Below, one piece after another: positions 11,061 to 49,575 of a stretch of 64,000 nt of DNA (positions are counted from its first letter, which is position 1; each line of letters begins with the position of its first letter). Under the pieces are notes generated by a model. That model saw only the letters and a list, made by a program, of their open reading frames with translations. It did no database searches and had not been told where the DNA came from. Made by a program: the position numbers and the translations under genes. Location: the NCBI GenBank assembly GCA_021234155.1, contig JAJEKV010000401.1, forward strand, positions 62,001 through 126,000, given 5' to 3'. Origin of the DNA: Isoetes taiwanensis. Lineage: Eukaryota > Streptophyta > Lycopodiopsida > Isoetales > Isoetaceae.

Positions 11061-11700
11061 GAAAGGGGCACCACCTTCTATCAAAGGGTGGAGATGCTTC
11101 CGCAGATGTTGACACAAAGAGATTTCCCATTTCAGCTTTTGCTAAGGCATTTCTGGTCAAATTATCTGGTAGACAGCAACCTTGATATAACAAAATTTAA
11201 CCCCAAATTGCAATGGCAGATGGTAAATTGCAATATTCTAATGGTTCCTTTTTAGATAAATAGCACCGAAGCAGGAATCAAAGCATTTGGCATTCCATTC
11301 AATCATGCTGGCCAGGCATAGAAGATTTAGAAGCCTTTTCATCCAAAATTATTTTGCAAGTACATTCAAAAACCAGATCCATACCTCGGAAATTAATCCT
11401 TGTTCTGCACAGATGAGATCTGCATCTCTATGTGACACTTTGTTTGAAGATATCATGCTGATAGAATGCTGCTATTCTCGGAATGCCCCCCAATTATGTA
11501 ATCCAACATAATGAACCAAACCCCAAGCTGAGCAGAATGCAAAATATATGCATCAAGCTGCGCCACACTCTACCAGCAAATAGATTAAACACAAATTGCA
11601 GATGAAGAAGGAGAGAGATAAAATAAGTCTGGAGGTTCATCCTCATCATTTTTATTTATTTCTTCCATGGAAGATGCACTCTACAACAAAATAATCTCTT

Positions 11701-12022
11701 CAAGAGCAAGAGTGAGAGAGAGAATGAGGAGACGTGCCTCCTCTTAAACTTACACAACAAATCTCAGCCCTTCATCTTTGAACAATCTCCACCATAGGAT
11801 CCCCAATAACTTACATGTCTCCTAGGATTGCGCCACCTCATCAATTATTCAACCATTAAAAGGGACTTTTATACACCTTCAAGTTCAATTACAAGTGCCC
11901 ACACTAAAATATCCAATAAATACAGTATCTTCTCCAACTTCAGCAGAGTAATCATCAAACATACATCAAATATGACAATTTAGAGCAAAGTGTCAAAATA
12001 TGAACAGATTAACCACACTACA
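11701..12022. repeat. Direct duplication, unit 1 (with 12041-12363)
   Basis: About 320 bp from AGAGCAAGAGTG to AACCACACTACA recur almost unchanged at 12041-12363, separated by 18 bp. No ORF of interest. The distal 60 bp also match 5400-5465 inverted. Confidence 0.9.
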
Positions 12023-12040
12023 TTGTAGACAATTTCCTTC

Positions 12041-12363
12041 AAAGAGCAAGAGTGTGTGAGAGAGAATGAGGAGACGTGCCTCCTCTTAAACTTACACAAC
12101 AAATCTCAGCCCTTCATCTTTGAACAATCTCCACCATAGGATCCCCAATAACTTACGTCTCCTAGGATTGCGCCACCTCACCAATTATTCAACCATTAAA
12201 AGGGACTTTTATACACCTTCAAGTCCAATTACAAGTGCCCACACCAAAATATCCAATAAATACAGTATCTTCTCCAACTTCAGCAGAGTAATCATCAAAC
12301 ATACATCAAATATGACAATTTAGAGCAAAGTGTCAAAATATGAACAAATTAACCACACTACAG
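12041..12363. repeat. Direct duplication, unit 2
   Basis: Second copy of 11701-12022, with a few substitutions. It abuts the broken end of the Harbinger transposase fragment at 12364. Confidence 0.9.
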
Positions 12364-22866: not shown

Positions 22867-23889
22867 ATGTAAACAAAGTTTAAAATGAAACGCACTTATT
22901 TGCTGGAAACGCACTTCAAAAGGAATCTTTGAAAGATTCCCTAAAATTCCCTTAAAAAAGTCCATTTTTAAGATTTTTTTGTGACAGATGTGACAATTTA
23001 GTTAATTTAGGTACCTTTTTTGAGGGGTTGATTGAACATAACTTCCGTGCAAAAATTTCAAATAGCAATTTTTATCCTCCTATTTTAGAACAAAAAATAG
23101 TTACTTATGTAAAGTGTAGCAAAAAAGGGCAATAAAAAAAAATAGCAAGGGTAGTAGAGTGACAAAGAAGTGATATATTCAAGGTTGTGAAAATTGTACA
23201 AAATTATGAACAAAATTGTCAAAAAATATAGGACATTTTGATAGACAATCATCACCGCGACTTTCTTTTTTTACATGTTCGAAGTTATCCGGACAAACTT
23301 ACATTTTGCAGCAAAGATCGGGATGCATCTCATCCTCCCACTCATTTATTCCCCCGATCACTTGAGCCTTCATCCTCGCTTCACTCTCAAAACTAGATGT
23401 ACTCGAATCCATCTTCTTTCCTCACCGCCTACAAGTGAGTCTTCATCATCATCTTTTTGGCCACCTTTTGGCTTGTTTGTCTAATCCACATGCCTAACCT
23501 TTATTAAAGTTTGAGGACCATATGTAACTTATTAGCAGCAATTTAACAAAGTCATATGCAAGAACCTTTACTTCAGTTAGATCTATGATGCTAAAGGCTT
23601 GCTTTGGACTTAGATCTCTTTCCCACTCTGTTTTTTACCATCTCCAAAGTATAACTCCCATGAAAGCATTGGCAAAGCAATCGTTTCATCCAAATAAGAC
23701 TTTTAATTGAGTGGGAATTCCATCCTCTTGTTACCTCCAGTACTTTAGCTAGCCAAAATGGCCTCCCGATTCATCATTATCACTGGGACAGCTATGAGCA
23801 TTCCTTTCTCGAATCTCTCAGACCGGAACCGTGATACGAGCAACTTGTTGTGTCAGGCGTCCGGGGCCGGTGTACATGACTCTGTCATC

Positions 23890-24990
23890 TTCATCCGAAG
23901 CTAGCCAATATCTCTACATGTTCTCTTGATTCTCAACTTGCACTGGGAGAGTTTGCCTAGATGGCCATTGAATGTAACCGGTCTTCGACCTTGTAATGAA
24001 GCTTGCAACATGTCACGCAGGTGAAAAATTGAGGCCACCATAAAGCATCCGGCCCCCAAAGTGGTTAGAGCAGACTGAATACTTGTCTCAATATAATCCA
24101 ATGATTTGTTTGAGTCAAATGCTCTTCCCTCCTTTTTACTTTTTGTGATTTCTTTTCAAGCTTTTAGAGGCATTTGATCGGGCAGAGAGCATGGAACTAG
24201 TATTGGGGATGGTGCTAATGAATTGAATATTACTGCTGGGTCGCCACGCAAGGATGTGGCATATTTCTTTCTTGTAAGATGGCCTTGCCATCTACAAGTG
24301 AAATTTTGATCCGATGCTGAAATGTAATGTTTCTCAAGGGCTCAATAGCACGCTGACCTAGTTGATCTCTCCTAAAAATCCATTCTTTGAAATCATAAGT
24401 TTCTTCCAATAACTCATGTCCGGACGAGGATTGTAGGAATCTTGGATAACCTCATCATTGCTGGTAGGTCGAGAGCTTTTTTCGAAGCAAGACGCTTAGA
24501 GAACCCATGAACATCTGATCAATTTGATCGTGTGTATGACCAACAAGCAGGAAACCAATCTTCACCTTCTTGAAGATTTGTTTCTACTAGCATAGCATGT
24601 TAAGCAAACAACGCCTCGATTCTTATTTTCCCTTGTCGTGGTTGTCTAGTCAAGATACGTAACCCGGGTGGTATATGTTCTAGATTGGAAAGAAGCTTAT
24701 TCAATATTGTGATAGTGAGATTTGGATCAGCATGAATGTTTGGATAATTCAAAAATGCCTTGCAAGATAGTTTTCCATTAAATACCATAGCACCAACAAC
24801 ATGCGGATGTATGAAATCTTCTTCAAAGAAAGATCCTTAGGCACATTGACAAAATGTGGTAGGGTGTGGTCTTTCCGTCCATTCCATCAATAACAACCGA
24901 TATGTAGTTGAGTGGTTGTTCCAGTGCTTTCTTCCTATGTTTTGTCAATTTTCTCCTTTCCAAAGATTGTTGTTCTCTGTGCTTGTTCAG
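23890..24990 (-). pseudogene. DUF7869-type transposon protein, partial and broken
   Basis: Read on the minus strand from 24990: KHREQQSLERRKLTKHRKKA, VVIDGMDGKTTP, FVHPHVVGAMVFNGKL-like, DPNLTITILNKLLSNLEHIP, then (shifted) LLVGHTHDQIDQM and ELLEETYDFKEWI near 24410. The DGMDGK..., H.DPNLT and GHTHDxIDQ motifs are those I associate with DUF7869 proteins, which are widespread in mosses, lycophytes and ferns and thought to be mobile-element encoded. Several frame shifts and stops. The 5' end is cut by the left TIR of element B at 24994. The catalytic role is unproven; an RNase H-like transposase is only a possibility. Confidence 0.65.
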
Positions 24991-25758
24991 TTTCAACAAA
25001 GTTTAAATTGAAACGCACTTATTTAAGAAGTGCGTTTGAAAGATTCCTCTAAAAAATCTAAAAAATCTTAAGATTTAGCTAAAAAAAGAGGCCTTGATTG
25101 GTTTTAGCCAAAATTTATGCAAAAAACTTTTCCGAAAATAGTGATTTTGCATGCAAGTTTAATGAAGAGAAGTTCCAAAAAAAATAAAATCCTATTTTGG
25201 GGGTTAACAAACCATTATGCAAGCCAAGAAATAATAAGTAGCAAAATGATGAAGATTAGAATGAGACGTTTTAACTTTGTTCATGAGCATTTAAGGAATT
25301 GCATGTTGTAGAAGCCATCCAATGTGATGCCACACAACAAATATAGGTTACGTTCTAAAAACTCAAAAATGCAATTATATGCAGCGATAAGCATAGGATA
25401 CCATAACACCACATTTCGCTTTGGCAACCCTTCAGGATTATTTAAAACAAATCACATGGATATCCAATCACATACGTGAGTTTAAATATAATAACATGTG
25501 CTAGCGTGGAAGGAACAATCACAGGGGACATCATGTGTAATGGATGTCATATGTATGCTATCTTACATGTTATGGTTATCGAACATGGAACTTCCGTAAA
25601 ATGATGGTTGTACCTTCATTTGCTTGATGCATGCCATTAGTGCATACATCTCAACTTCCAAGCTCATCATTACTTTATATTTTGCATAAACAAAATTTTC
25701 TAAGTGAGAAATCTAGACGCCTAAGGCTGCATCATTTGGTTTATATTTAACATGATTA

Positions 25759-26345
25759 TCAAAGTGAGAAATTTAGATTTAAAGTAACAATATGATGTGA
25801 CAACTCTTGAAGAAGCCACTTTGCTAGTCCAAAATCTGAAATCGAGCATCGCAAATTGGAATCACAGAGTGCATAATTGCAAAGTACACCGCAGTACTTC
25901 ATCCGAAGCTCATGGTCTACACCAAGTGAGATATTACATGATTTGATATCAACATTTATGATGTGTCTTTGACAGACTTGTGGAAATAGTGAAGACCACA
26001 GCAAAGCATCAACTGTTATGTGGTGCCTTGCGTGCCGACCCAATGCTTGTCTCAGAGGACCCGATGCACATAGTAATTTAAGTTGCAACTAGAGGTGGAA
26101 CCAAATACATTCAGAACCATGAAGGAACAAACCATGAAGAAGCGCAACGAGGCTTCCACAAGGACAAAGTGAGGCTTCCATATTGTTACCAGTGTGATAT
26201 CCTGATCTAATATTTGGCGCTTGATATCCGTGACTTGTGAGACATTTGCAAAGAAAAAAATCATGTTTGGAATGGAGTAATCTTCATGACCAACCCCATA
26301 AACAGTCTTTACAGTTTTAGCTCCATGAAGTAGTACAAGGAAAAA
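25759..26345 (-). pseudogene. Receptor-like cytoplasmic kinase (RLCK VI / RBK-like) fragment
   Basis: On the minus strand: a CPCGSLVALLHG stretch near 26140 (matches SPxGSLASLLHG of RLCK VI), then VCQRHIINVDIKSCNISLG (kinase catalytic loop, HRD changed to NVD), then SDFGLAKWLLQELSHH near 25810 (activation segment; DFG present, AKWLPEQWTHH in the family). Frames are shifted and the N-lobe and C-lobe ends are absent, so it is dead. It lies within the TIR elements and looks like a host gene fragment carried along. Functional RLCK VI kinases are cytosolic Ser/Thr kinases that interact with ROP GTPases. Confidence 0.7.
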
Positions 26346-26814
26346 AAATATTTGAGGCCTTCTACCTGTATTGCAGTTCAGGAGAGTGTATCGGTCTCCT
26401 AGAACAGGAGTTCAGGAGTGCAGCCGAACTTCTAAATCTGCCATTCAAAACCATTCAAAACCGCTATCCCCGCGGTGCCGACCCATTCAAAATGTAAGAA
26501 CCTCGGCTACCCCCCTGTGCCGAATTGTGTGAAAAACCTTGAAAACCGACACTGTGTGAAAACCTTGAAAACTAGACTGTGAAAGCATTCGACCCGTCGA
26601 CACCAGTATGGAAACCTATTCGACATGTGTGGATGAAGAAGCTGGGCCGCATTAAGAGTGTAGAACCTAAAAATTTTTTTTTCTTCAAAGCTTCTTCGGA
26701 CTAAGAAACAAGCCCTTCAGATCACTAAGAAACTCATGCCGCACCAACAAACACCTTAAATCGTTAGATTATCACAACCCTAAAGTTTTCCTCGCACAAG
26801 TTTTCCTAGCCAGA

Positions 26815-27275
26815 GATAAATTTATACCGTCAAAAGCATCCGCCATGTTTTAACCAGGGCAAAATCATGTTATATCCATGGAGTGTCAAGTTATAACCAT
26901 AAATAAAGTTTCATTTACCAAAAATTTCTTGTTATAATGCATTGAATTTTTAACTAAATCTTTTTCAAGAGAGCTCGTGGTATAAATTTATACCGTGACT
27001 ATAAATTTATACTGCTCCCGATATTTTCACATGTGGGGAGATGGTATAAACTTATACCGCTTGAGCTCACCGGCGGTATAAATTTATACCACTTGAGTTC
27101 TTTCCTTGCATACCGCTTGAGCTCACGTGGTAAAATTTGTATCGCTTGAGCTCATGCGTATAAATTTATACCGCTCACTAAATTCAATGTATCACTTGAG
27201 CTCACGTTGTAAACATTTATACCGCTGGGTGCAATGCCTCATGAGCTCCCATTTGGTATAAATTTATATCGCCCA
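26815..27275. repeat. Palindrome cluster 1 (GGTATAAATTTATACC)
   Basis: Exact copies at 26979-26994 and 27075-27090, variants at about 26816, 26999, 27043, 27158, 27211 and 27255. Spacers repeat GCTTGAGCTCAC. Non-coding. Confidence 0.9.
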
Positions 27276-28099
27276 ATAACATTAATGCTTACTTAACTAA
27301 AACTAAAAAAATATTAATGCTTACTTAACTAAAACTAAAAGACACCTTTTAATGAAACAATCATGATGTACGATTACCTGGCCATCATCTGGTAACCGAA
27401 AGCGCATTTTGGATCAACTATACGGGAAGCTCACAAGTTGCCTGTTGTGACTCAAACAATACTGAGGTTAGCATGCGGGTTGTGGTTTCATTGATTGACA
27501 ATGCTGAGGAACGTATACTTTTCATAGTGAGGCAGAGGACAAGAATAGCTCTGGTGATCATGGTCTCAACGTGTCAGACCATGACATGCATCCTGAATTA
27601 GCCGCAGTCTAACTTTATTCAAAATGCCAAATCTACCACATTTTTTACAATTTTGTTCAAAAATTTGTAGTGATTTCAAAAACTTTGAATGCAGTATCTT
27701 TTTGTCGCTCTAATGCACTTGAAGCTTTTTTCAATGTCTACTTTTTTTTAGTCTCTGAAATTGCTACTATTTTTCATACTAAACTAGGGGGCTAAAAGGG
27801 GGTATCAAACAATTTTGCATGGAAGCTAAGTTGAATTGCCCCCTCCAAAATAGTACCTAAAATATCCAAATTGTCACACTTGTCACAAATTTGCCTCGAA
27901 AAGGGGTCTTTTTGAGGGGATTTTAGGGAATCTTTTAAAGATTCCTTTTAAAGTGCATTTGGAGCAAATAAGTGCGTTTCATTTTAAACATTGTTTTTCT
28001 CCTTCAATGCATCTGAAATGAAAATATGTTTAGGAAAGAACCTACTTTTAGTTAGAACTAGGCAAGAACACGTCCTGGAAGCTTACTTTTAGTGTGAAG

Positions 28100-28640
28100 T
28101 GTCCTTGCATTTTGTCTCGAGCTTTTAATTCGTGAGCATGTAGCACAAACAGACATCCGGTGCTTTTCTAGGAATGGACACTGGTGAGAAAACTCTTTTT
28201 TTCCAGAGAGCACAAGAAAGTAAAGAGTAGTGCATAAAGCGTTCTCTCACCTCAACACACATCTCCTTATAATTATCGAGACTTCTTTGTTTCGCGGAAA
28301 TTGTTGTCACTCAAGTGGTACATGGGGCTGTTAGGAGTTTCTCGCAAGACTCCTTAAAGAAACCTTCCATCCAAGAAATACATTGAAGGGCATGAATTCG
28401 GATATACCTCCCGAATGGCGTGAGTCATTAATGCCGGATTCTTGTCAAGCCTTTTCTTCAGCGGTCAAGTCGTCACGCCTAAAGCATGAATCAATTTGAA
28501 GGCCGTTTGACGACGGCGTGGCCACCAAGTTGTGTAAGTAAACTTCTCACCACAATCAGGCCTAATATTGAAGGCTAAGTAGCCCCTTTGGTCTAGCAGA
28601 GTCATTGAATCGTAACTATCACTTAATCAACCTCAATTCC
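28100..28640 (-). other. Possible downstream exon(s) of the proline-rich gene
   Basis: Minus-strand open stretches in shifting frames: GEKFTYTTWWPRRRQTAFKL near 28540, then MTHAIREVYPNS, PMYHLSDNNFRE, NYKEMCVEVRERFMHYSLL. The composition looks protein-coding but I recognise no family. It could be the rest of the gene whose start is at 29430 or a separate remnant. Confidence 0.35.
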
Positions 28641-28641
28641 T

Positions 28642-29430
28642 TTAGTCCAATCTTAAGCAAACAACGTTGAGAACAACAATGCTTTGTATGTGTTGCCGCA
28701 AGTGAGCCTCGTCCATGAGTTTCTTTCTTCTAACGGTTGTACATGCTTTCTTGTGTAAATTACGCTTAAGATTCTTACTTGCAGGGGCTTTGAATTCGAA
28801 CATGGAGTCTTGTGGCTTCGGTAGGTCCTCGTCTGAGACATCAACATGAGGTGTTTCTTCGTCTGAGAGATCAACATGAGGTGTACTTGTAGATGCTGAG
28901 AGGTTTGATGTGGGCAAGTCCTGGGGGGAGGTGCTTTCCCTCTCTCTGGGAAAAAGTAATCGAGGTTGGTGACGTAGTTGACCAGCTCCTGAAGTGTCGT
29001 AGAACACAGGAGTTGCGTGTCGCTGACTGCTCCCACTTGTTGTAGTACCATTTAGCGAAATGGATGGAGTTGGCGTAATTTGCCTCCGGGGAGGGAGCCT
29101 ACGGTGGACTATGGGCGACGCACTAAAATTAACTGGAGGAGGTAGTCTGAGCTCTCTAGCCTGTGGTGGAGTAAAACGCATTGGTGGGGGCAAACGACGT
29201 TCAGGAGCAGGGTGTGGTGGAGTAAATTGAACTGGTGGTGGAAGCCGAGGTGGTCGTGCTGGAGTAAGCTCAACAGAGCTGGGTGTTGGAATGTCGGAGC
29301 TAGAATATTCATGACTACTTCCTGGTGTCTGTTGAGGAGGTGTGAAACTCATTGCAGGTGGGAGCCTGCGAACAGGAGTTGGAGGCTCGCAGGTTTTTTT
29401 CTCGAGCCATACCGTAAAGTTAGGCCACAT
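28642..29430 (-). CDS. Hypothetical proline-rich, repeat-containing protein of element B
   Basis: A clean 262-codon frame, the longest unbroken ORF inside the insertion, starting MWPNFTVWLEKK. The first 130 residues hold at least six degenerate repeats of RLPPPxxFTPP type. An acidic tandem repeat follows (STPHVDLSDEETPHVDVSDE) and then a basic C-terminus with KKACTTVRRKK, possibly a nuclear signal. No catalytic motif. It is transcribed away from the ParB-methyltransferase gene. A palindrome (29433) lies immediately upstream of its ATG, and none lie within it. It is probably an element-encoded protein or its first exon. No function assigned. Confidence 0.5.
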   Translation of the reverse strand: MWPNFTVWLEKKTCEPPTPVRRLPPAMSFTPPQQTPGSSHEYSSSDIPTPSSVELTPARPPRLPPPVQFTPPHPAPERRLPPPMRFTPPQARELRLPPPVNFSASPIVHRRLPPRRQITPTPSISLNGTTTSGSSQRHATPVFYDTSGAGQLRHQPRLLFPRERESTSPQDLPTSNLSASTSTPHVDLSDEETPHVDVSDEDLPKPQDSMFEFKAPASKNLKRNLHKKACTTVRRKKLMDEAHLRQHIQSIVVLNVVCLRLD

Positions 29431-29431
29431 C

Positions 29432-30126
29432 AGTATAAATTTATACGACAGAAGAACAGACGGTATAAATTTATACAGAGATGGTATAAATTTATACAGG
29501 AAAGGGAAACTCTTGGCGGCAGACAGTATAAATTTATACGGAGATGGTATAAATTTATACAGAGGAGGGCAACATAGAACAGAAACGGTATAAATTTATA
29601 CCTAAAACTCATGCACACTTGTATTGGAAACTTTATGGAGAAACGCTTATACCGAAACGGCACTTAGCGAGGGGGGTACTTAGCCCTGGGCTACCGCCAC
29701 CCTATTTTCCATATACATTATTTGAAGTATAAGGCCATGGACCCCTTTATATATCCCTTCTTATTTGCTCTCCTAACGCTCTATACGCTTAGTCCATACG
29801 GCCATGGCCACGTAAGTCTACTTCTCCGCATCGCTTTTAGTTTCTCTTTTTGTTTTAATCATTTAGAGTGGTAGCTCGAAGCGGTATAAATTTATACCGA
29901 GATGGCTCGGTCGGTATAAATTTATCAGTAGCTAAATTTATACCGCCTCCGCTTTCAGAACACACCTTATAAATTTATACCGACAGAACACGGAGCGGTA
30001 TAAATTTATACGATTGTGTTCGAGCTTATATAATTTATACCGCCGAGCACGGGCTTATAAATTTATACCCACCCGTATTATCTCGGTATAAATTTATACC
30101 GCCGAGTTTCGGCGTATAAATTTATA
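29432..30126. repeat. Palindrome clusters 2 and 3 (GGTATAAATTTATACC)
   Basis: 29432-29602: six copies, the last exact (29587-29602), spaced 13-45 bp. 29880-30126: about eight copies, exact at 29883-29898 and 30085-30100, spaced by GC-rich words such as CCGAGCACGGG. Between them 29610-29880 is unique sequence with no gene seen. Frames encoding repeated YKFIP or INLYR peptides here are products of the palindrome. Confidence 0.9.
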
Positions 30127-30363
30127 TTGTTTCAAAATTGTTTCTAATCTTGGTGTCTAGTGCTTAAAGAATGGACCCGAACCTTAATATTTTAGTAATA
30201 TTGTTGTGTTTTAAGCTTAAATAAGACAAAAAAAGTGTTAATTAATTGTGGATTTTATGCCCTTTTAGCCTCTGCTTTTCTTTGTTTTTGTGTGTCAAAA
30301 AGTAAAAATGTGTTATTTTTCTTAAAAAATGGTTTTTAACTCACGCCCGCCCAAGGATAAAGT

Positions 30364-30640
30364 TTGTGCAAAAGGCCAATCTTCGTGTCAATCTTCACAG
30401 TCGCACCTCACCGTGCCATGACGCATTTAACCAAAAAGACCGACGTGGGGGCAAGAGAGAGCAAACCAACTGAGGCGTACCTGTACTTGTGCCATCATTC
30501 AGGGAAGGGCAAGTACAAGGCCGATGATTATTATCTTGCCGGCGAAATAATAAACCTGGTTGCTACAGAAAACGAAAATGAACTTTTAATGAAGTGCATG
30601 CATGACAATGGGGAAGTCTTCTACGTTTATACCGCTCGAG
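30364..30640 (+). other. Conserved exon-like ORF in duplication unit 1
   Basis: Open frame with YLCHHSGKGKYKADDYYL and NENELLMKCMHDNGEVF, ending where a palindrome cluster starts. Unit 2 (31050-31411) encodes the same peptide with breaks and continues past the point of truncation to a good donor (GCTAT|GTAAGT at 31411/31412). It is probably a duplicated 5' exon of the ParB-methyltransferase gene. No domain recognised. Confidence 0.4.
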
Positions 30641-30815
30641 CACGAGCCGTATAAATTTATACCGTTCAAGAACACTTGCGGTATAAATTTATACCGATTG
30701 TGTTCTGGAGCGGTATAAATTTATACCGCTCGAGCACGGGCGTATAAATTTATACCGACCCAGAGCCATCTCGGTATAAATTTATACCGCTCGAGCTCGG
30801 GGCGTATAAATTTAT
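30634..30815. repeat. Palindrome cluster 4
   Basis: Six copies, exact at 30680-30695, 30712-30727 and 30773-30788, with spacers such as CGCTCGAGCACGGGCG. Confidence 0.9.
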
Positions 30816-32549
30816 ATTGTTTCAAAATTGTTTCGGAATCTTGGTGTCTAGTGCTTAAAGAATGGACCCGAACCTTAATATTTTAGTAATATTGTTGTGT
30901 TTTAAGCTTAAATAAGACAAAAAAAGCGTTAATTAATTGTGGATTTTATGCCCTTTTAGCCTCTCGTTTTTTACCGCTTTTTGTGTGTCAAAAGTCAAAA
31001 ATGTTCTCGCTTTCTTACTAAAAAAAATGGTTTTAACTCACGCCCGCCCAAGGATAAAGTTTGTGCAAAAAGGCCAATCTTCAGGTCAATCTTCACAGGC
31101 GCGCACCTCCCGTTACCACGACGCATTTTAACCAAAAGACCGGGACGGGGGGCAAGAGAGAGCAAAACCAATCGAGGCGCACTGCATTTGTGCCATCATT
31201 CGTGGAAGGGCAAGTACAAGGTCGATGATTATTATCCCCGCCGGCTAAATAATAAACCCGTTGCTACGTAAAACGAAAATGAACTTTTAATGAAGTGCAT
31301 GCATGACAATGGGGAAGTCTTCTACGTTCTCAGTAGTAACATGCTTAGATTAAGCATGTGCAAGCCCAAAGACGGAATGAGTACATATCCGGAAAATTAC
31401 AAGGGCGCTATGTAAGTTATTCTTAGTGGCTTTACGATAAATTTATACCGCTCATCCTCCTAACTAAACCCCGCACACAGGGATATAGTGGACATTTTGA
31501 TGTCGCTGGTGCTTTGGAAAAAAATGAAAAGGTGTTGGTCAAAGGTCCGTGGGTACCCCCACTACTATCGAAGAGGAAGAAAATGTTGATTAAGTAGAAG
31601 AAGAAGAGGAGGAAATAGTAATACCAAAGGGAAAGGGTAGGAAGCATTCCCCGGTAGTAGAGATACATAACCTCCCACCAAAAAAAAAAGACTAGAACCA
31701 CAAAGGCATTGACTATAGAGGAGTCGCCAGGCTCTTCGGAAGGCCCTCAGGGTGCAGATATTGTTGTGAAGCCCGTGGACAAGTCAAGTGCTATTCTAAA
31801 AAAGGTTAATGACACTAAACTGCTTAAGCAAACAATTTCCTTGACATTGAGCACTATTAAGAGGCCGCCTAAAAATGAAGATGGGGTCGAGAGTTCTTCA
31901 GTATTTAAAGTCAGACGCAAGACACATGTGGCTATACTCAAGCAAAGAATGAGAAGGAATCCTCATGCCCATGTGTCGCCACTTGTTGTAATGGTTGACA
32001 GGAGTCAGTGCAACCAACTAAAAGATTATAAAAAGGCTAACTTTGAGGATTACACATATTTTGTACTTGGAGGCACACATAGTTACAAAGCAAGGAAGGA
32101 ACTTTCAAAAGAAGAATCCCGTGAATTAAGTTTGGAAGAGCGAGAAGCACATATCTCACGCTTGGAGTCACGTGCATTTAGGAAGCAAAGGTCATTGCCG
32201 TGAGTCATAATCTCGACAATGACTTCAGACTAAAAATGAGTCTTATAGACAAGATCCGCTTCATGCACCGGGAATACGTAGAGTTCAAGCAAGTGCATGG
32301 GGAGGACTTCAAAAAACAAAAGAACAAGCTCCAAGAACTTCGAGAAGCTTGTGTCACAGAGTGCTGCCTCAGCTACGATTCAGATAAGAAGCCCATAATG
32401 GCTGTGAAGCAGTACGACAATTACTTCCAGCTTGCTTTCAGAGATGGTCAAGTAAGTAAAAGCTTTAATTTAGTTGTCTGTAGTATTCTTAGCATAGCTG
32501 AGTTTGTATATTAACATCGAACTTTGTAAATGCGTACCAAGGAAGACCA

Positions 32550-32835
32550 GCCACGGTATAAATTTATACCGTGCCTGGTTACAGTATAAATTTATACCGT
32601 GACCAGACACAAGATGCGGATAAATTTATACCATCACCGTGCACTGCAGATAAATTTATACCGATCACCGGGGTGACGGGATCACCAGCACGGTATAAAT
32701 TTATACCGCGGTGCACGGTGATCGTGATAAATTTATACTGCGTCGGCAGCAGATACTTCCAGATAAAGTCATACCGTTGCCAGGCACGGTATAAATTTAT
32801 ACCGTCACCAGGCACGGTATAAATTTATACCGTGC
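32550..32835. repeat. Palindrome cluster 5, inside an intron
   Basis: About ten copies within the intron that starts at 32452, exact at 32555-32570, 32692-32707, 32789-32804 and 32816-32831. Spacers repeat GTGCCTGG / CCAGGCAC and GTGACC / GGTCAC, so the arms are longer than 16 bp in places. Confidence 0.9.
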
Positions 32836-33904
32836 CTGGTATTCCGTGTGCAATAATATAGTAGACAGAGTAACCAACGCTTGTTCGCCATTCAAAACTA
32901 AAATACTTGTGTTCGATCACAACAGTGTGGGATCTTCAAGAAAGAATATTTTGTATGTTCAAGATGGTGAGCCGAAAAGAACAATCTAGCTCACTTGGGA
33001 AAAAAACCAAAAAAAAAGGTGGTGAGGCAAAACAAAAAAAACATGAGCATTGTACCGGATGCGCCATGTGGTTTGAAAAGCAAAGAAATTTTTGTAAGAC
33101 TTCTAGAAAAAGTTGTGGCCAAAGAATTTACTCGGAATTTAAATGGCCAAAGAAGCTAAGACGTAAGCCACACTTTTATGTCGTGTTCTTTGATTCTTAA
33201 TTTTGTCTGATCACATTTTTCCCTCCGCAAATGAAAAGACATTGTCACCGCCAAAGTGTAATTAATGAAGCAACTTAACCTGGAGGACTGGGAGGAGTGC
33301 AAGGCTTTATATCCAACCTCTACTACAGATACTATTATCAGAGAGCACGCTGTTAACTTCAGTGGCTGGGTAAGTTGTACAGAAAATACTTTTTGTTTTC
33401 GTGCCTTTGTCTCACAGTTTTCTTGCAGAATAAGAAGAAAGGCCTACCAACAGGATTTTTAAACCTGGTTCGTAGGGCCAAGGAGGAGAGGCAGAGACTG
33501 AAAGTAATTGAGCAAGGAAAGCAAGTCAACACTAGCAGCTTTGACACTACTTACGAGAGATTCACTACATTTGGTCGACGCCCAAGACATGTGGTTGTTC
33601 GTGGTGACCGCGACGAGGTCGGGACTCTTTTTTAGACAAACAAAATTTTTACGTTATGCATTGTAGATATTCCTTATGGCTTCAAAATCAAGGATAGCAC
33701 TTTTGACGAGGAGGCTTTTACTCACGCAAGTCCGTTCTTTCTTGGATGGCCTAAAAGAAGTCACGACATCTGAAAACCGAGGGTCATCATTTTTCATTCC
33801 GACCGCAGACGCGATGTCGATTGCTAAAGCCATTGGGAGTCGCTCAGAACGCTTAATTGCGTATGGTAAGCTTTGAATTTCTTGCTTTTCTATTTACTTT
33901 AACA

Positions 33905-33985
33905 CCACGGTATAAATTTATACCTCAATTAAGCCGTGGTATAAATTTATACAAAGAAGGCAATGGTGGTATAAATTTATACCGC
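33905..33985. repeat. Palindrome cluster 6, inside an intron
   Basis: Three copies, exact at 33909-33924 and 33968-33983, within the intron 33866-34056. Single further copies lie at about 31437 (intron 31412-31480) and 34718 (just past the stop codon). Confidence 0.9.
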
Positions 33986-34739
33986 CACACCACTTAACTA
34001 ACTTATTTTGTTCGTTTTCTTTTCTCGCCAATGTTTAATTGCTTTTTGTTTGGCAGGCTAAAACAAATGTCAAAGGACATGGTGGTGGTCCGCGCTTAGT
34101 AAGTCGCTTTGAACATTTCCATATTGGTTTTTACAGCGCGGACGCCAAAAAAACCATGGTTCATTTCAACACGCAGAATGAAAAGACTCCACCCTGCAAC
34201 GCCTTTCAGTTTCCGGCTGTTCTACAAAAATTGAGAGACCCACAACGACAAGGAGCTGTGGTATCTCATTATCAGAAGCCACAATGGCTAATTAATAATT
34301 TAATTCAGTGGTTTTCGCCCAGGAGACTGGATTCTAGATGCATTTTCGTGCTCGGAGTTTGCGCCTAAGCAAGGGCGCAATGTTGTCTCCGTCGACATAG
34401 ACCAGGACAAAATATGTTTCATCGGACCGTGATAAGCTCTTGTGAATCCTTTCCTGATGAAAACGAGGAACTGGGAGCAAAAAACGGTGCTGGCGATGTG
34501 AAAGGCACATATACAGAAATCCAGCCTCCACTTACGGGAAGAAGAGATGAGGAGGTGGAGTTTGTCGATCTGGAACCTGTGGTGCCCTCGAGCGAAAAAT
34601 CAGCCTGCACTGCACTACCATTGGAATCGGGAGGGGGCGTCTCGCTATTAAAACCGCAAGTAAGAGATGCATCCTAAGGGGAACGAGAGTCCAGTGGACT
34701 GGGAAGAGCCACCTCCCGTATAAATTTATACAGACAGTA

Positions 34740-35910
34740 TTTTAAATTAACTTTCATTGTAATCTATGTGCTAAGAATTTTAATATATTTTGATGAAGAT
34801 TTTTCAACTGAAAACTTTGTCTCTTTAACAATGCTTAATTAGAACAATTCTTTTTTTGATTTATGATTTCACACTCTTTCTCTTTTCTATGTTTGATTTT
34901 CTTAGTACTTATATTAAGCTTGCAAAAAGACAAACTATATTTCCTTCTATTTTCAACAACAAATACTTAATGAGTTTTTAAATTTAATGTCTCTCTCCTC
35001 AAAACAAGCTTCTTTTTTTTTTGCCCTTTTTTAAAAATGAAAAGGCTTCAAAAATGTTGCTTTTTTTGGGGTATTTTGAATGCTATTTGCTCAACAATCT
35101 ATTTTGCTCCCTATTTTGTCCATTTTTTTCAAGTTTCCAATTTTTATAAAGGAATCTTTCAAACGCACTTCTTAAATAAGTGCGTTTCATTTTAAACCTT
35201 GTTTGTAGAGGTATGTGTTTAAATGGGCTCTTAATGTAAGACTTGCCTACATGGGCTTTAGATGTAAGATAGATTACCTCATATACTTATTCTGCATATG
35301 TAGGGATGTGTGTCGAAATGGCCTGAAGATGTAAGACAGAGGTAATGGTGACACCCAATAGCAATGGGCTATTATCAGCAATAGGCCATGAGGATGCTCC
35401 AAGTTTGATAGTTTAGTTTTATTTTCATTTTCCCTATAGGTTGGGCACCCAGCTTTATAAGCATCAACATTATATACAACATTATATACACCGACATTAT
35501 ATACGACAAATATTCTAATCCACCAATTTTGAGGGAAAAGCCCTCTACCATTTCTCCTAAGAACGAAGCTTCAACAAGATTATATGTTATGCGATTAGGA
35601 ACGATCCGTGCTAGATGTTTCCTACCATAGTCTCCGGCTTTGAGCAAGGTATTACGTAATCTCTATCCAGCGCATTCTTTTGAGGTGGTGTGGAGTCGAA
35701 GGTAAGCCTTTATAGAACTCTATTCGAAGTTTTTTGAATCTTTTAATCTATAGGTTAAAAATTACCGCCTCTGCTCACGCTAATTTACCATTCAAAAGAC
35801 GATTTATGTTTTTTTTCGAAGCTTAGATCTTGCCTTGAAGAAAATTCTTATCAAGATTCTTGACGCGGCAACTATGCACCATTGGCAACAAATGATATTA
35901 TTTTTGCCAA
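34740..35910. other. Element B right end and following unique region
   Basis: 34740-35145 is AT-rich with no gene; 35150-35205 is the right TIR. 35206-35910 has no clear gene; a 90-codon minus ORF (35375-35647, KAGDYGRKHLARIVPNRITY) is unrecognised. ATTATATAC occurs three times at 35467-35505. Confidence 0.5.
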
Positions 35911-37022
35911 CGCCGGATTGTTAAATCAGCCACGGATAAGCGTTTTGATGAATTAAATGGCCACAACAGTGGAGCAGATGAGGAACCACATGAAGATTAA
36001 TGACCGGGTAAGTCTACATGAGAGCTTTGATAAAATAAACAAGCAGCCTTGAGAAGGTCATTAGGGTCACAGAAAACCGATAAGGTTCCTCGCCTATACA
36101 TCAAAGCTCTTGTCACATTAGAAGATTTTCCGCCTTTACTTTTAGCTAACAAAGATGCAAAGAAGAAAATGAGCAAAGAGCAATGCAAAAGCTTTGAATT
36201 ACATGAAACAAGAAAGCAGAGAGTGATGACGAAGAAGCATCAGGTGTTCCGGAACCCAATACGCTGATGAGGAGCCCGAGGATATTATTGCACGTAATGA
36301 CTCATGAAGATGTGTACTGACTTAAGAACCTCAAGGAGGTGGGAAAAGAGCAAAAGTAGGAAGGATAGGTTAATGGACAATCAATTTAAGAAAGATCCAA
36401 GTGAGATTACATGGGACATGGTCGACAAGAAGAATAAAGAAATAATTGCCGCAAGAGGTAGGAAAGGCAATGATAGGGTAGAGCAAGTTGAGCAGCTTGA
36501 CTTATTTGACACGAAGTTGCAAAAACTCCTACCAAAAATCTGGAAATTTTTGCTCCGTTGTTGTCTCGCGCATTTGATGTGACATCTGGTCTAAATACGT
36601 GATTTGCGGGTCGCCCGGGAAAAGTCCATGGCAAAATATTTTGGTTATCTTGGATGTGCTTGCCCGTTTCCAAATATAATAATGAATGAAAATGTCGAAC
36701 AAGACATGGACGCAGAGATCCGTAAAGGAGCGATTATGAAGGAGAAATTCACATCCGGGGAACATTGTTTCATATCCGGAGAAAATTGATGATGAACTAT
36801 TTAAGAGCTTGCAATTCATTGACCCACATACTAAGGAGTACTAAGGAGTATGTGGAACGGATGCGTGATGAACCAATCGCTCATGGTTCTCGGGGCCAAA
36901 ATATTCGTGGATTATGTGCATCGGATTGGGGAGATGAGATCTGTTGCAAGAGTAGCATTGAGAAGGTTAAAGCATGTGTACTATAAGCCCCAAGAAGTGT
37001 AACGGTTATGAGGAAGCTTGCG
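35911..37022 (+). pseudogene. eIF3 subunit C fragment, intronless and broken
   Basis: A run of shifted frames with the eIF3c order: RIVKSATDKRFDELN (35914), NHMKINDRVSLHESFDKINK, PRLYIKALVTLEDF, ANKDAKKKMS, KKDPSEITWDMVDKK (36384), [30 protein letters not shown] and VERMRDEP (36800-36870), VALRRLKHVYYKPQEVY then MRKLA (to 37022). eIF3c is a scaffold subunit of the translation initiation factor that binds 40S ribosomes. Many frame shifts and the missing N- and C-terminal parts show it is dead. No introns are apparent, which suits a processed copy or capture of a large exon. It lies inside the insertion but outside element B. Confidence 0.85.
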
Positions 37023-38205: not shown

Positions 38206-38969
38206 GTGGTGGTCCCGGGGTTGTGTTTGACTCCGTTTGTGTTGAAAAACCACATAATTTGAGTTGGAATTGGATCAAAAGGGATTGTATTATTCCTACA
38301 GGCAACCAAGCACAAATAGTACTCCTCGTTTGATGCATTGGCAAACCATAAACCATATGAGACATCCAAGAAGTCATGTTTTCAGACAACCGTAAACCGT
38401 CAGAACTGCTGCCTAAACTATACAAATTGACCCTCGATTCACCACGTAAACATTTCCGAGCGCCGTATTCCTTCAGGAGTAAACCCGACACATGTCCGGT
38501 TAACCACCGCCGCCTCAGTTTCAAGCTCAAAAGACAACGGTTTCTCGTGATTTTTTTTCACCGATCTTGCTTGATCCATGCTCAAATCTCTTGCTCTTTT
38601 GATAGAATAGGGTTTTTAGGGGCTGTCAAGGTGATTCCAATGGTGTTTGAACCGGATTGAACCGTTCAATAAGTTGATTGCAAGCTCTATTCAAAGATTA
38701 GCATGCCAAAACACAGTCCCACGCTCAGTTCACCGCGTGGTTATCCCAGCCAAAAAAAAGTGGTTAACCCGGACAAAAGTGTGGTTAACTCGGACATGAC
38801 AGTGGTTAACCCGGACATGTGTCCGGGTTTACCACTTCCCGGAGTAGGAATACGGCGCTCCAACATTTCCTGCTTTGTAATATTGCAATTCTATGTAACC
38901 CAACACAGGCATGGCGAGCATTATCGGCCAAGAAATCCTGATAAAAAGTTCCATGCTGAAATGTTTCAT
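38206..38969 (-). pseudogene. Inverted copy of the lectin receptor kinase, N-terminal coding part
   Basis: Minus-strand homologue of 2434-2790. It starts at ATG 38969 (MKHFSMELF..., signal peptide kept), is interrupted after about 35 codons by a 404-bp MITE (38458-38861), resumes with NMTSWMSHMVYG-like frames, and stops at 38206 where the 16.8-kb insertion begins. The rest of the gene is at 18960-21410. Confidence 0.9.
38458..38861. mobile_element. 404-bp Mutator-type MITE with 9-bp target duplication
   Basis: Terminal inverted repeats of about 50 bp start GAGCGCCGTATTCCT at 38458 and end with its complement AGGAATACGGCGCTC at 38860. Inner arms hold ACATGTCCGG. The 9-bp word AACATTTCC flanks both sides (38449-38457 and 38862-38870) and occurs once in the uninterrupted gene at 2535-2545. 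A 20-bp unit with GTGGTTAACCCGGACA is repeated near the right end. A 9-bp duplication is typical of Mutator-like elements. Confidence 0.88.
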
Positions 38970-39945
38970 TCAACATTCAGAAAGGGTTCTTGTGCTCCGA
39001 TCATATAGCAATCTGCAATCTTATCAATAACAGCTATTATAGTCAGCAAACTATTAATGTTTATGTTCATGCAGGGAAATGAATGAGCCTCTAGTGGGCC
39101 AGAAAATGGCCCAGAGGGTAATAACATAAAATTCGGCCAGACTGTTTTGAGCTGATGATTTCCATGTCGATCATATTTGTTTCAATGGCGGCAGAATGCA
39201 GGCCAGAAAGCCAAGACAAACAAAAAACTATTAAGATTTTTTTCATGGCAGTTTTATGGCAAGCTATACTAGTAAACAAACTAGTTAATATTTGTTGGTT
39301 TCCATGATGCTAAAAATTGCAACGGCCTCCACTTTTGTGCATCTAATTCGCATCACTTTCTTTATCGTTCTCATTCATATTGTTATTTTTGGACCTTCAG
39401 AGCATAGAATCTCCTACATCAAATGTCCATGTTTGACAGTTAAATCTCCTGCACGAATCAATGCTGCAACAAGATCACACCATACGATACCAAAGTTTTC
39501 ATAACACCAAATTAATCGATAGAACCATGCTCCTTTTACATGACTGGCATGTCAGGCCTGGCGGATTTCCAAGTCCTGGACCTCAATCAACAGGAAATAA
39601 ACTCAAGCAACCACTCATGAAAGAAGTTTTGCTGAATTATAATACATTGACAGCTTCGACATCTCTTACAACACACATATTATTACAAACAAGGATACGC
39701 ATCACAGAGAATATACAAACACCACCACTACATTGCATATATTATCTAATCTTAGATATTCATAGACATATAGACATAGTATTATGGCACAAAAGCTCTA
39801 TATTGTCATACAGAATAGCAAATTGCATTCTGAAACCTTCAAACAGCCCTTCTCTTGCTGGAGTGGGAATTCTTTGGATTCTGAATTCTCTCTTTGCAAC
39901 ACATCAGTCCTGAATCATGTTGCGCAATGCATGATTTGGAATGAG
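38970..39945 (-). repeat. Inverted copy of the kinase upstream region (matches 1383-2433)
   Basis: Reverse complement of 1383-2433. It lacks most of the extra stretch at 2066-2183 and has its own small indels. Similarity ends at about 39945. The 150-codon plus frame 39461-39913 is a by-product with the same peptide on the minus strand at 1860-1633. Confidence 0.9.
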
Positions 39946-40727: not shown

Positions 40728-43720
40728 TGAGTATAAAGGGAAAGCTTGAATTGATAAGAAGGATATGCAGGCATACATGCGCTGCTACAGAGAACAAGGA
40801 TCAATGGGATCACACACTGGTGTCTTATGTCCTAACGATCGTGCTATAAATAGTACTGCTGCTAAACTGAAAACATAAAGACTTAACTAGAGTCTTAACT
40901 AACTGATTTGTTGACAACAGAATCTTGTAACCATGTAACAAATTCTGCCCGGGATTTTCTGTTATCTCTGACAACAGACAACACCTCCACTTCAGAGATA
41001 AAAAATCTAGGTGTGGCTCTGTTGTCAACCATAGCCCCCACTCAGAGACATACCAATCGGATGAAATCCACAAATTTAGAGAACTTGATGCGAGCTAAGG
41101 GTTTAGTCATCATATCTCTGGGCATGTGTTCAAAGAGGATGATTGAAGAAGGATAGTCCCATTTTCAAGCGGATCACCGAATGAAATGATATTGCGGATC
41201 AATGTGTTTCATACGGCTTATGCAAAGATTGGATTCTTGGCAACCGCCATGGTGCCTTGATTATCAAGATGAATGAGAAGTCCGGGAGAGGAAACAATGC
41301 CAAGCTCAAGACTAAGACGTTGCAGCCGGATAGCTTTTGTCGGCATGGGTACGAGCAACATACTCGCCCGTTGTTGATAATGCCATACATTTTGCTTGTC
41401 TCCTCCAATCGATAGCAAGTGGCTCCATAAGTGAAGATGAAGCCGAGATGGATTTACTGATCATGCTGGTCGCTTTCCCAATCTGCATCGGAATATCCTT
41501 GAAGAGAGGGATCCTCCTGGGAGTGATAACATAAGCCATGTGCAACTGTTCCAGCAAGGTAACAGAGAAGGCATTTCAAGGCAGAGCAATGAGTCTGTTT
41601 AGGATCAAGGCAGGATTGACCGAGTTTGCACAGTGGTAAAGAGAGATCTGGACGGGTATAGGTAGCTGCAAAATTCAAGAGGCCAAGTATAGTGCGATAA
41701 GAAAGACAGATATGATCAAAGGACGGTGAACAAGGAGGGTCGTCAGTGCAGTGTTTTTGGTTAAAAAAGTTAACTAAATTCTTAACTATATTTCTTAACT
41801 ATATGCTAACTTAACTAGTGGTGCGAATGTAAATTTAGTTAAAAACCATATTTTAACTTAACTTAACCACGGGTGCGAATGTACCCTTAGTATGGTAGAT
41901 GTTTGCTAAAAAGTTGAAGTTACATATATGTTTTGTACAAATTCAAAACTTTTTCTTTAGAGCGAGAAGTTTGTTCAGGATCTCAGCGGCTAGTTATGGC
42001 GAGCACAATGGCAAGGCGCTTGCTTGCTGGCTCTCGACCCGCCTTCGCCCAGTCTCTGCGTGATCCAGTCCATGGTCTAGAGGGGTAGAAACAAAATTAG
42101 AGTGGAACATTTGAAAACGGTGGAATGTCGGTAAGGTACTTGCGTTGGCTTAGATGAAGTGTTCCTTTGGATTGATCATAACGAATTTCCATGACAAGGA
42201 AGTAAGTAGCTTGACCCAAATCTTTCATATGAAATTGAGTTTGGAGCTGAATTTTGAGTTCATTGAAAGCAGTGAGAGAATCAGCAATGATGAGAAGGTC
42301 GTCCACATAGACTAGAATAATCAAGAGATGAGGAGATAAGGAAAAATAGAGACTGGGATCAGCTTAGCATTTGGAGAATTTGAGATGGATAAGGCTTTGG
42401 TCCAGCTTGTCATACCAAGAACGTGAAGCTTGTTTTGAGCCATAAAGAGCTTTGGAAAGTTTGTAGACTTTGGTAGCCTGAATAAAACCTTCGGGTTGCT
42501 CAATATAGACCTCTTCCTTGAGATCACCATGTAAGAAGGCATTGCTGACATCCATTTGATGGATATAGTAATGATTTTGAGTGGCATAAGCAAGAAGAAG
42601 GCGAATGGATGGAATTTTCACAACCGGGGCAAAAGTTTCAGCATAGTCAAGGCCTTCTACTTGATTGAAACCACGGGCAATAAGACGTGCTTTGAAGTGA
42701 TCAACAAGGCCAAGGTGATTATATTTAACTTTGAAAACCCAGCGGCTGCTAATGATAGTGCGATCAGAGGGACGGGGAACAAGAGTCCAGGTATTATTAT
42801 CGTGAATGGACTGCAGTTCGGCAGCAAGACATTGTGCATGATGAGGAGATGCCATGGCCTGGGAGTAAGAGTGAGGTTCGATGATAGGTTCTTCAGTTAG
42901 CATGTTGTAATCACGGGTCCAAGCAGGAGGTTGACGATTGCGGCATGGGCGGGAGCTTGGAGGAGGCTCTAATGGAGAAGTATCTGGATGGGACTCAGAT
43001 GGTGGTAACACTGGATCTGCAGCAATGGGTACTGGAGAATGATCATCAGACAGTGATATAGTTGGAGCAGGCCCTGCCAGAGTGGTTGGCTCAAGGGATG
43101 ACATAGGATGAGAAGCTGATGGTGACACGCAATCCATAGGAACTTCAACGGTAGAGGAGGTAATTGGAAGTGCAAAAACATCTCTCATATTCATTGAACG
43201 TGGCATGGCAGGTAACAAGAAGTTTGTGAGTGGCAAGATTAAGAAATCGATAGGCTTTGCTGGTGGTGGAATACTCTAGAAACATACAAGGAATGGCTTG
43301 GGGATCAAGCTTGGATCTTTTGGCAGCAGGGATGTGAGCAAATGCTTTACAGCCAAAAACACGAAAATGTTTAAGAGAAAGAGATGTACCAAAACAAATC
43401 TCATGTGGAATTTGATGATCAAGGCTAGAGTGAGGAGTACGGTTGATGATATGAGAGGCAGTATGAATAGCCTCTCCCCAAAACTTTGCTGGAACCTGCA
43501 TAGCTATAAGCAGACTGCGAGTCATCTTAATCAAAGTGCGATTTACCCTTTCTGCTCGCTCGTTTTGCTCAGGAGTGTCAGGAGATTAAACCTCATGTCG
43601 AATTCCATGTTGATTGCAGAACTGAGCAAATTCATTTGATGTGAATTCACCACCTCCATCACTACGCAGGATAGCCAAGGAATTCCCTGTAAAAGTCTGA
43701 GCTTTTATCATAAAAGATAC
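40728..43720 (-). mobile_element. Ty1/copia LTR retrotransposon, 5'-truncated
   Basis: The minus-strand pol stretch 43720-41050 is followed by a probable 3' LTR at about 41037-40728. The LTR start lies just after a G-rich tract (GAGTGGGGGC) and the end is at CTCA/TGAG at 40728. No 5' LTR, gag or protease is present. An insertion of about 310 bp interrupts pol at roughly 41740-42050 (with two ACATTCGCACC words). The LTR limits are tentative because there is no second LTR to compare. Confidence 0.75.
41050..43720 (-). pseudogene. Copia pol (integrase C-half, reverse transcriptase, RNase H), broken
   Basis: Order on the minus strand: integrase C-terminal half (PAKFWGEAIHTASHIINRTP, 43500-43430), linker, RT (NTWTLVPRP, RWVFKVKYNHLG, RLIARGFNQVEGLDYAETFA, MDVSNAFLHGDL near 42530, YVDDLLI at about 42310), then RNase H pieces (SDADWESD near 41480, ALSTTGEY near 41380, DNQGTMAVAKNP near 41240). 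Frames change near 42330 and several times after 41700. The gene would have made the copying and insertion enzymes of a copia element. Truncated 5' of the integrase zinc finger. Confidence 0.88.
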
Positions 43721-49279: not shown

Positions 49280-49575
49280 GGCGCCGGCTCCGCCGGCGCC
49301 AAATTCTTGTATTATTATAGCCGGCGCCAAATTCTTGTATTATTATATTATTAGTATCGTGACATAACTTTTCTCACTCGTGACAAACATGAAACTTGTC
49401 ACGAATGATATTTAAATAACTTTGTCACTTGTGACAAATATAGGTTTGTCACGCGTGATAAATAATTATATTTGTCACGCGTGACAAATGTTAATTTGTC
49501 ACGTGTCACGCGTGACAAAACCTTTACTTTTGTCACGCCTGCCAATTTTACTTTTGTCACCCAGGACAAACTGAA
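49280..49575. repeat. Palindromic TTTGTCACGCGTGACAAA array
   Basis: Nine or so half or whole units of TTTGTCACGCGTGACAAA; a perfect 18-bp palindrome is at 49471-49488. Just before it, GGCGCCGGC-TCC-GCCGGCGCC is a hairpin (49280-49300) and a 28-bp unit beginning GCCGGCGCCAAATTC is present twice (49292, 49320). Non-coding. A smaller related cluster is at 54205-54295. Confidence 0.85.

Follow-up and report, generated by a model that had tools for sequence, protein, structure and literature searches.

A decayed DNA transposon of Isoetes taiwanensis combines a DUF7869 gene with a spliced gene for a predicted DNA amino-methyltransferase and arrays of a 16-bp palindrome

In a 64,000-nucleotide stretch of the lycophyte Isoetes taiwanensis (assembly GCA_021234155.1, contig JAJEKV010000401.1, positions 62,001 to 126,000; hereafter the window, with positions counted from its first letter), we analysed a locus for which a mobile element carrying a spliced gene with ParB-like and DNA methyltransferase parts had been proposed from the sequence alone (the original prediction). 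Our analysis, which is based on one broken copy of the element, showed that 22872-35203 is a decayed DNA transposon with two genes arranged head to head. One, on the minus strand, contains a DUF7869 domain; the other, on the plus strand, is a spliced gene predicted to encode a beta-class DNA amino-methyltransferase with relatives in the fern genus Adiantum. A smaller relative of the element is nested in the DUF7869 gene, and arrays of a 16-bp palindrome, GGTATAAATTTATACC, lie between and within the genes. The features are as follows, from left to right, with P0002 denoting one of the predicted Adiantum relatives:

22868-22871, TGTA target duplication, left side of the outer element
22872-23238, plus strand, left outer end, type 1: terminal repeat (22872-22901) and about 340 bp of subterminal sequence, similar to the inner right end
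23300-24994, minus strand, C-terminal part of the DUF7869 gene with the motifs DGMD and GHTHDQIDQ, frameshifts and stops; 3' limit approximate
24995-27995, minus strand, nested 3,001-bp relative, with TTTC at 24991-24994 and 27996-27999, a kinase-like fragment at about 25.7-26.1 kb, and palindromes
26813-27270, eight GGTATAAATTTATACC sites with at most 4 mismatches in the nested element
28000-29430, minus strand, presumed N-terminal part of the DUF7869 gene with a proline-rich start, in frame with the C-terminal part after removal of the nested element
29432-30818, GGTATAAATTTATACC arrays between the divergent genes (29432-29602, 29883-30128, 30648-30818)
30361-31411, plus strand, presumed exon 1 in two tandem copies (30361-30627, 31050-31411), outside the tblastn matches to P0002
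31481-32451, plus strand, exon with an acidic linker and a ParB-like region (GGTHSYKARKEL, HNLDNDFR, YDNYFQLAFRDG); tblastn E=1.3e-29 to P0002; ParB assignment weak
32555-32831, GGTATAAATTTATACC array in intron 2 (32452-32925)
32926-33369, plus strand, two spacer exons (32926-33162 and 33257-33369), weakly conserved, with no tblastn match of their own to P0002
33429-33865, plus strand, exon with motif IV (DIPYGF, 33665-33682), matched by tblastn to P0002
33909-33983, GGTATAAATTTATACC palindromes in intron 5 (33866-34056)
34057-34677, plus strand, last exon, with motif X (YQKPQWL), motif I (GDWILDAFS), GRNVVSVDID and an acidic tail with VDLEP; tblastn E=1.1e-9 at 34042-34635
35142-35203, minus strand, right outer end, type 2: terminal repeat (35174-35203) and 32 bp able to pair with part of it
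35204-35207, TGTA target duplication, right side of the outer element

The outer element measures 12,332 bp and ends in 30-bp terminal inverted repeats, and its nested relative is inserted in reverse orientation. Four copies of the 30-bp end, AACAAAGTTTAAA(A/T)TGAAACGCACTTATTT, are present at 22872, 24995, 27995 and 35203, two in each orientation; all begin with AACAAAG, in the outer as in the inner element, and each right-hand copy carries one extra difference. Beyond the repeat the ends fall into two types, as type 1 ends (22872 and 27995) share 74% identity across 370 columns and type 2 ends (24995 and 35203) share 94% across 62 bp, and each element bears one end of either type. In the type 2 end (24995-25056, 35142-35203), and not in type 1, the terminal repeat has at its inner edge an inverted repeat that resembles a hairpin, AAACGCACTTATTTAAGAAGTGCGTTT. 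Pairing the ends by similarity (L1-R1, L2-R2) would yield two overlapping elements, an arrangement that is ruled out by the target duplications and the reading frame. TGTA brackets the outer element and TTTC the inner one, both 4 bp long and at the same AACAAAG boundary, and in silico removal of the inner element with one TTTC joined a minus-strand frame that is open for 29 amino acids before and 55 amino acids after the junction (...PKHIFISDALKEK / LNKHREQQSLERRK...). The duplications together with the joined frame indicate that the inner element inserted, reversed, into a gene of the outer element, with L1-R2 as the true pairing of the outer and L2-R1 of the inner ends. Terminal inverted repeats and target duplications of fixed length, both present here, are features of Class II DNA transposons. 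In a blastn comparison (E<=1e-4), the two elements had only their two ends and the palindrome array in common, and the nested one has no recognised transposase gene. Its minus-strand frame at 25762-26088 reads, by eye, as a receptor-kinase catalytic fragment, possibly a captured piece of a host gene; Pfam gave no match for it.

The interrupted gene on the minus strand of the outer element extends over about 29430-23300. Its C-terminal part, submitted as pieces joined across frames but each verbatim from the window, matched Pfam DUF7869 (PF25273) with E=3.8e-20 and 72.7 bits (cut-off 26), and we assigned 28000-29430 to the same gene on account of the joined frame. Because this is the other long gene of the outer element and carries acidic motifs (DGMD; GHTHDQIDQ), its product is probably the transposase. 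A PDB sequence search with the DUF7869 piece returned no solved relative, and in the open-licence literature searched we found no paper naming the family. A DUF7869 transposase with 4-bp duplications and two unlike ends may define an undescribed superfamily. Target duplications of 4 bp are also stated for Sola2 in the excerpts available of a report on these elements (PMC3627910), where they are AT-rich; here they are TGTA and TTTC.

For the plus-strand gene we modelled six exons and five introns (31412-31480, 32452-32925, 33163-33256, 33370-33428 and 33866-34056). Each intron has a GTAAG donor and an AG acceptor, and their positions were set by eye from the genomic sequence alone. The tract with the presumed exon 1 is duplicated (29965-30627 and 30647-31328, 87%), and the gene probably begins upstream of 31050. 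Towards its end, KPQWL lies at about 34275 and GDWILDAFS at about 34322-34348, and the acidic tail reaches 34677. Several breaks interrupt the gene. A stop codon stands in frame shortly ahead of motif IV, and the frame also changes, both in the ParB-like part and at points behind motif IV and ahead of motif I. This copy of the gene is therefore dead. Much of what had been proposed from the sequence was borne out at this level. The motifs were found at the places given for them (GGTHSYKARKEL and HNLDNDFR at 32.1-32.2 kb, then DIPYGF, KPQWL and GDWILDAFS) and are collinear with the fern protein in tblastn, and the gene has introns, with the exons joined by good splice sites in all five modelled cases. 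The proposed extent, 31050-34677, agrees with our model at its right end but probably not at its start. A mobile element with terminal inverted repeats is supported by the ends, the two target duplications and the DUF7869 gene, but it is much larger than proposed.

We then searched for relatives of the predicted protein. The joined window pieces gave N6_N4_Mtase as the best of three Pfam matches (E=5.6e-4, 20.4 bits, below the cut-off of 26.7), a PHROGs DNA methyltransferase (PHROG_498, E=0.0045) and an NCBIfam adenine-specific DNA methyltransferase (E=0.049), the last two as sole matches in their databases. A protein search with the 824-residue join (words from residues 280-824) found nothing at E<=1 among 7,996 candidates. 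The ParB-like exons alone (E<=10, 235 candidates) recovered one protein of Adiantum nelumboides (E=1.2e-23), and a two-sequence profile of the window and this protein (E<=1, 6,795 candidates) recovered six further Adiantum proteins. In all, there are seven predicted relatives, five from A. nelumboides and two from A. capillus-veneris, on seven different contigs; P0002 has 752 amino acids and the whole architecture, and the other six are 80-87% identical to it, most of them being shorter gene models that end before or within the methyltransferase domain. The seven loci are L7F22_017058, L7F22_012702, L7F22_000567, L7F22_025291, L7F22_024394, GOP47_0012334 and GOP47_0028670. P0002 matched Pfam N6_N4_Mtase (PF01555) above the cut-off (E=4.3e-9, 37.1 bits) and PHROG_498 with E=1.6e-15; its PDB matches were M.RsrI (2.8e-4, two sequences), the putative modification methylase 2zie (0.0058) and, more weakly, CcrMI (0.14) and one tRNA methyltransferase (0.31). 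In tblastn against phages, P0002 hit 70 records at E<=0.1, with 2e-5 as the best among the matches listed, which were mostly annotated as DNA methylases. Five PDB rows obtained with the window pieces (E 0.66 to 1.4) and three phage tblastn records (E 1 to 7) were judged to be chance. Two scans of viral contigs and one of prokaryote genome contigs returned no tblastn relative; these are weak negatives, two of the three scans having gone through one peptide pattern each. A structure prediction for P0002 with its six relatives had a mean pLDDT (predicted local distance difference test) of 29.9 and was not used.

Since the profile search had used joined pieces, we ran the reverse check and compared P0002 by tblastn with the raw window, without exon joins. 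Four collinear plus-strand stretches were found: 31835-32107 and 32182-32451 (E=1.3e-29 together), 33438-33710 with motif IV (E=3.1e-4), and 34042-34635 with motifs X and I and most of the tail (E=1.1e-9). The tail itself is alike, reading VDLEP in the window and VDFEP in Adiantum, and the motifs follow the beta-class order IV, X, I. An hhalign comparison of a fern-plus-window alignment with six phage methyltransferases (Halobacterium phage phiH ycdA and five proteins picked for long match to it) extended over 202 columns from motif IV to motif I, with probability 96.7 and E=4.4e-10. Because P0002 exceeds the Pfam cut-off and matches the raw window collinearly, we regard the methyltransferase as real. 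Pfam, PHROGs, PDB and hhalign thus concur, on the fern homologue, with the beta-class assignment of the original prediction; its profile check against N6_N4_Mtase succeeded for P0002 but fell short for the window pieces, and with seven predicted proteins in two Adiantum species the gene is not confined to one single homologue. The canonical catalytic motif IV is [DNS]PP[YWF], in which D or N goes with N6-adenine and S with N4-cytosine as the methylated base. Motif IV reads DIPY in the window, EAPY in P0002, DAPY in P0005 and DALY in P0001; a D-x-P-Y motif plausibly fits an adenine enzyme, and from the variation at this motif some or all copies may be inactive.

The ParB-like N-terminal region fared less well. 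No ParB profile match was obtained for the window pieces in Pfam, NCBIfam or PHROGs, nor for the seven Adiantum proteins in Pfam or three of them in PHROGs. The matches that the ParB-like piece did give, in NCBIfam (Asp2, E=0.0019; YfcE, E=0.0021; both far under the cut-offs) and in Pfam (LIP, 0.026; SRP40_C, 0.55), were judged to be chance. Full-length hhalign against the phage proteins aligned the methyltransferase part only. When the N-terminal regions were aligned alone, they fell into the expected register, with GGTHSLIAKQEL opposite the phage GHxRLxAARKL, at a probability of 0.85% and a score of 16.7 that was beaten by one of 60 column shuffles. The ParB resemblance that had been proposed is thus weak.

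The palindrome GGTATAAATTTATACC sets the element apart from the rest of the window. With at most 2 mismatches it occurs 32 times in the window, where 0.02 are expected, and always within the element (26813-34732); with at most 4 mismatches, 41 of 42 sites fall within the outer element including the nested one. The sites form nine clusters, seven of them in the outer element, and none overlaps a modelled exon; the clusters occupy the upstream region that both genes share, introns 1, 2 and 5, and sequence downstream of the last exon. Under random cluster placement, with 66% of the outer element being modelled exon, the probability of finding none of the seven in exons was 5.5e-4, or 1.6e-3 for none of six when the cluster at 29432-29602 was set aside, both values being rough given that the exon model is our own. 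The core is exact over 11 bp in 37 of the 41 sites; in a local duplication used for comparison, 486 of 516 aligned sites were identical, with 34 gap columns in addition. The palindrome core is therefore more conserved than its surroundings, a comparison that does not separate age from homogenisation and from which we make no claim of selection. A CG dinucleotide adjoins the palindrome at 16 of the 41 sites on the left side and at 23 of them on the right; it is replaced on the left by TG (7) or GC (7) and on the right by TG (4), AG (4) or CA (2); these replacements follow no clear deamination pattern, and we make no claim of CG decay. The placement of the arrays and their retention in the nested relative are as expected of sites read by the element's own proteins.

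In the best-supported reading, the element carried the gene for a sequence-directed DNA methyltransferase of its own, which would have marked or protected its regulatory DNA; we give this proposal somewhat less than an even chance. The DUF7869 protein would act as a cut-and-paste transposase, and the methyltransferase protein would be directed to the palindrome arrays and modify bases there, most likely adenine at N6, which is favoured because motif IV begins with D. Such a modification would mark or shield the regulatory DNA and keep it open, so that host silencing by cytosine methylation could not settle, a mode of action like the one by which VANC proteins work with their motif arrays in Arabidopsis. 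The nested relative would retain just ends and array because these are what the two proteins read. The activity, the base and the target of the methyltransferase are those we infer. In its most specific form, a self-marking system in which a transposon-encoded amino-methyltransferase, with palindromes dedicated to it in promoter and introns, writes N6-methyladenine (6mA) or N4-methylcytosine (4mC) to evade silencing by 5-methylcytosine, the proposal appears unlikely to us.

Parts of such a system are known elsewhere. VANDAL elements belong to MuDR and make target duplications of about 9 bp, in contrast to the 4 bp found here, and no MuDR or VANC profile was among the Pfam matches of the submitted pieces; the likeness is one of working principle only. 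According to excerpts of the VANC21 study, the Arabidopsis VANDAL transposon likewise has a passenger gene and short motifs arrayed chiefly in non-coding DNA: the VANC21 and VANB21 introns and the region upstream of VANA21 (PMC5735166). These excerpts do not call VANC a methyltransferase, whereas the passenger here is one by prediction. Phage ParB-methyltransferase fusions, for example phiH ycdA (locus L001), join a ParB-type domain at the N-terminus to a beta-class N6_N4 methyltransferase, and the phiH ycdA group resembles the element protein from motif IV to motif I (the hhalign match above), in the methyltransferase part only. In phiH ycdA, ParB_N scored 1.3e-4 and 22.4 bits (just under the Pfam cut-off of 26.3) and N6_N4_Mtase 5.7e-35, which shows that this domain order exists in phages. 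That protein has 419 amino acids, no introns and DPPY, whereas the element protein has a long spacer, an acidic tail, introns, D-x-PY and a weaker ParB match. Fungal DNA transposons with a TET/JBP dioxygenase likewise carry a DNA-modification enzyme as passenger, but this is a 5-methylcytosine oxidase, and the elements are, in the excerpts available, hAT, EnSpm, IS3EU, PHIS, KDZ and others (PMC12730594). The giant-virus elements Mariner-2_PGv and Mariner-1_OLpv also encode a methyltransferase, together with a Mariner transposase and an endonuclease partner and in viral hosts; palindrome arrays are not described in the excerpts of that source (PMC3627910). The bdelloid rotifer N4CMT is a bacterial-type N6_N4 amino-methyltransferase in a eukaryote that affects transposons, but as a host gene with a chromodomain and an SPPY motif that deposits 4mC at them, as far as the excerpts of the report go (PMC8885841).

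Among the alternatives, the one that survives best, though we think it rather unlikely, is that the passenger is an inactive sequence-specific DNA binder, with the methyltransferase fold as a clamp, which opens regulatory DNA or controls transcription through the palindromes. VANC21 works by binding its motif, as stated in the excerpts of that study (PMC5735166), the arrays here resemble binding sites, and the catalytic positions of motif IV vary in Adiantum (EAPY, DAPY, DALY). On the other hand, motif I is well kept in P0002 (DLFAGTDTT), DAPY of P0005 is plausible for catalysis, and the methyltransferase fold has stayed recognisable across the divergence between the window and Adiantum. The enzyme could also serve transposition itself if methylation of the element set the moment at which the transposase acts, for instance once the DNA has replicated, a timing role that Dam plays for bacterial IS10. 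The head-to-head layout of the two genes and the presence of palindromes in the nested relative would suit this, but the sites lie away from the ends: 725 bp separate the nearest array from the right end of the inner element, and a solitary site stands 471 bp from that of the outer one. We consider the idea improbable. About equally improbable is capture of a host or bacterial gene by chance, without a role for the element. Plant transposons often pick up genes in this way, and the kinase-like fragment of the nested element (read by eye, no Pfam match) suggests that this family may do so, but the palindromes found throughout the element also occur in the introns of this gene, there are several fern relatives, and no near prokaryotic or viral relative was found in scans of which two went through one peptide pattern each. 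An artefact, through bacterial contamination or through random frames read by chance, to which at most the broken frames might point, can be dismissed given the collinear match of the fern homologue P0002, the GT-AG introns, and the plant-type lectin kinase and Copia-type reverse transcriptase in the same window.

Several observations weigh against an element-encoded methyltransferase that marks its own regulatory DNA. The window copy is unable to make the protein, and no intact element with terminal repeats was seen, one broken copy having been studied. Motif IV is non-canonical (not DPPY), its first proline not being kept in the window or in the three Adiantum proteins that reach the motif, so that the family may be catalytically weak or dead. 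The six other Adiantum proteins gave no methyltransferase match in Pfam, and only P0002 of three tested did so in PHROGs. The N-terminal region may be called ParB-like, no more, ParB homology not being established, and the methyltransferase protein is presumed to bind the palindromes. Replication slippage of a hairpin sequence could have built up the arrays, and the six palindromes at 29432-29602 fall within an open frame that lies 5' of the ATG we selected, so that their non-coding status rests on that choice of start codon. Profile searches gave no match for the 28000-29430 stretch of the DUF7869 gene taken by itself.

To our knowledge, amino-methyltransferases of the bacterial class are hardly known in plant nuclei, and the use of 6mA or 4mC by land plants is disputed. 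Among the matches listed in a search of the open-licence literature, we found no report of a plant transposon with such a methyltransferase. A transposon family that combines the predicted enzyme with candidate target sites would allow the mark to be sought on intact copies, and the clustering of the palindromes makes self-targeting testable, without proving it. The anti-silencing factors known so far act as binders (VANC) or, in fungi, as erasers (TET/JBP); if element-directed methylation is true, a writer enzyme would join the contest between transposons and silencing in plants.

The surrounding DNA looks like nuclear DNA of a land plant, with a B_lectin protein and kinase frame at 2434-4878 and a Copia-type reverse transcriptase (RVT_2) on the minus strand at 42367-43275. 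The lectin receptor kinase region (1391-5141) has two partial copies in reverse orientation with about 88-91% identity, 18975-21407 pairing with 2787-5141 and 38209-39941 with 1391-2786 (gapped). Directly to the right of the outer element, at 36301-36579, lies a fragment of the eIF3c N-terminal domain (PF05470, E=1.3e-9), around which the frames appear broken, as in a gene fragment or retro-pseudogene. Possible satellites are the tandem repeats at 60600-64000 (about 320-331 bp) and at 11698-12362 (340 bp). Finally, a separate and unrelated palindrome, TTTGTCACGCGTGACAAA, forms an array outside the outer element, with seven of its eight window sites (at most 3 mismatches) grouped at 49370-49570, where 0.03 are expected; this array may mark a different mobile element.

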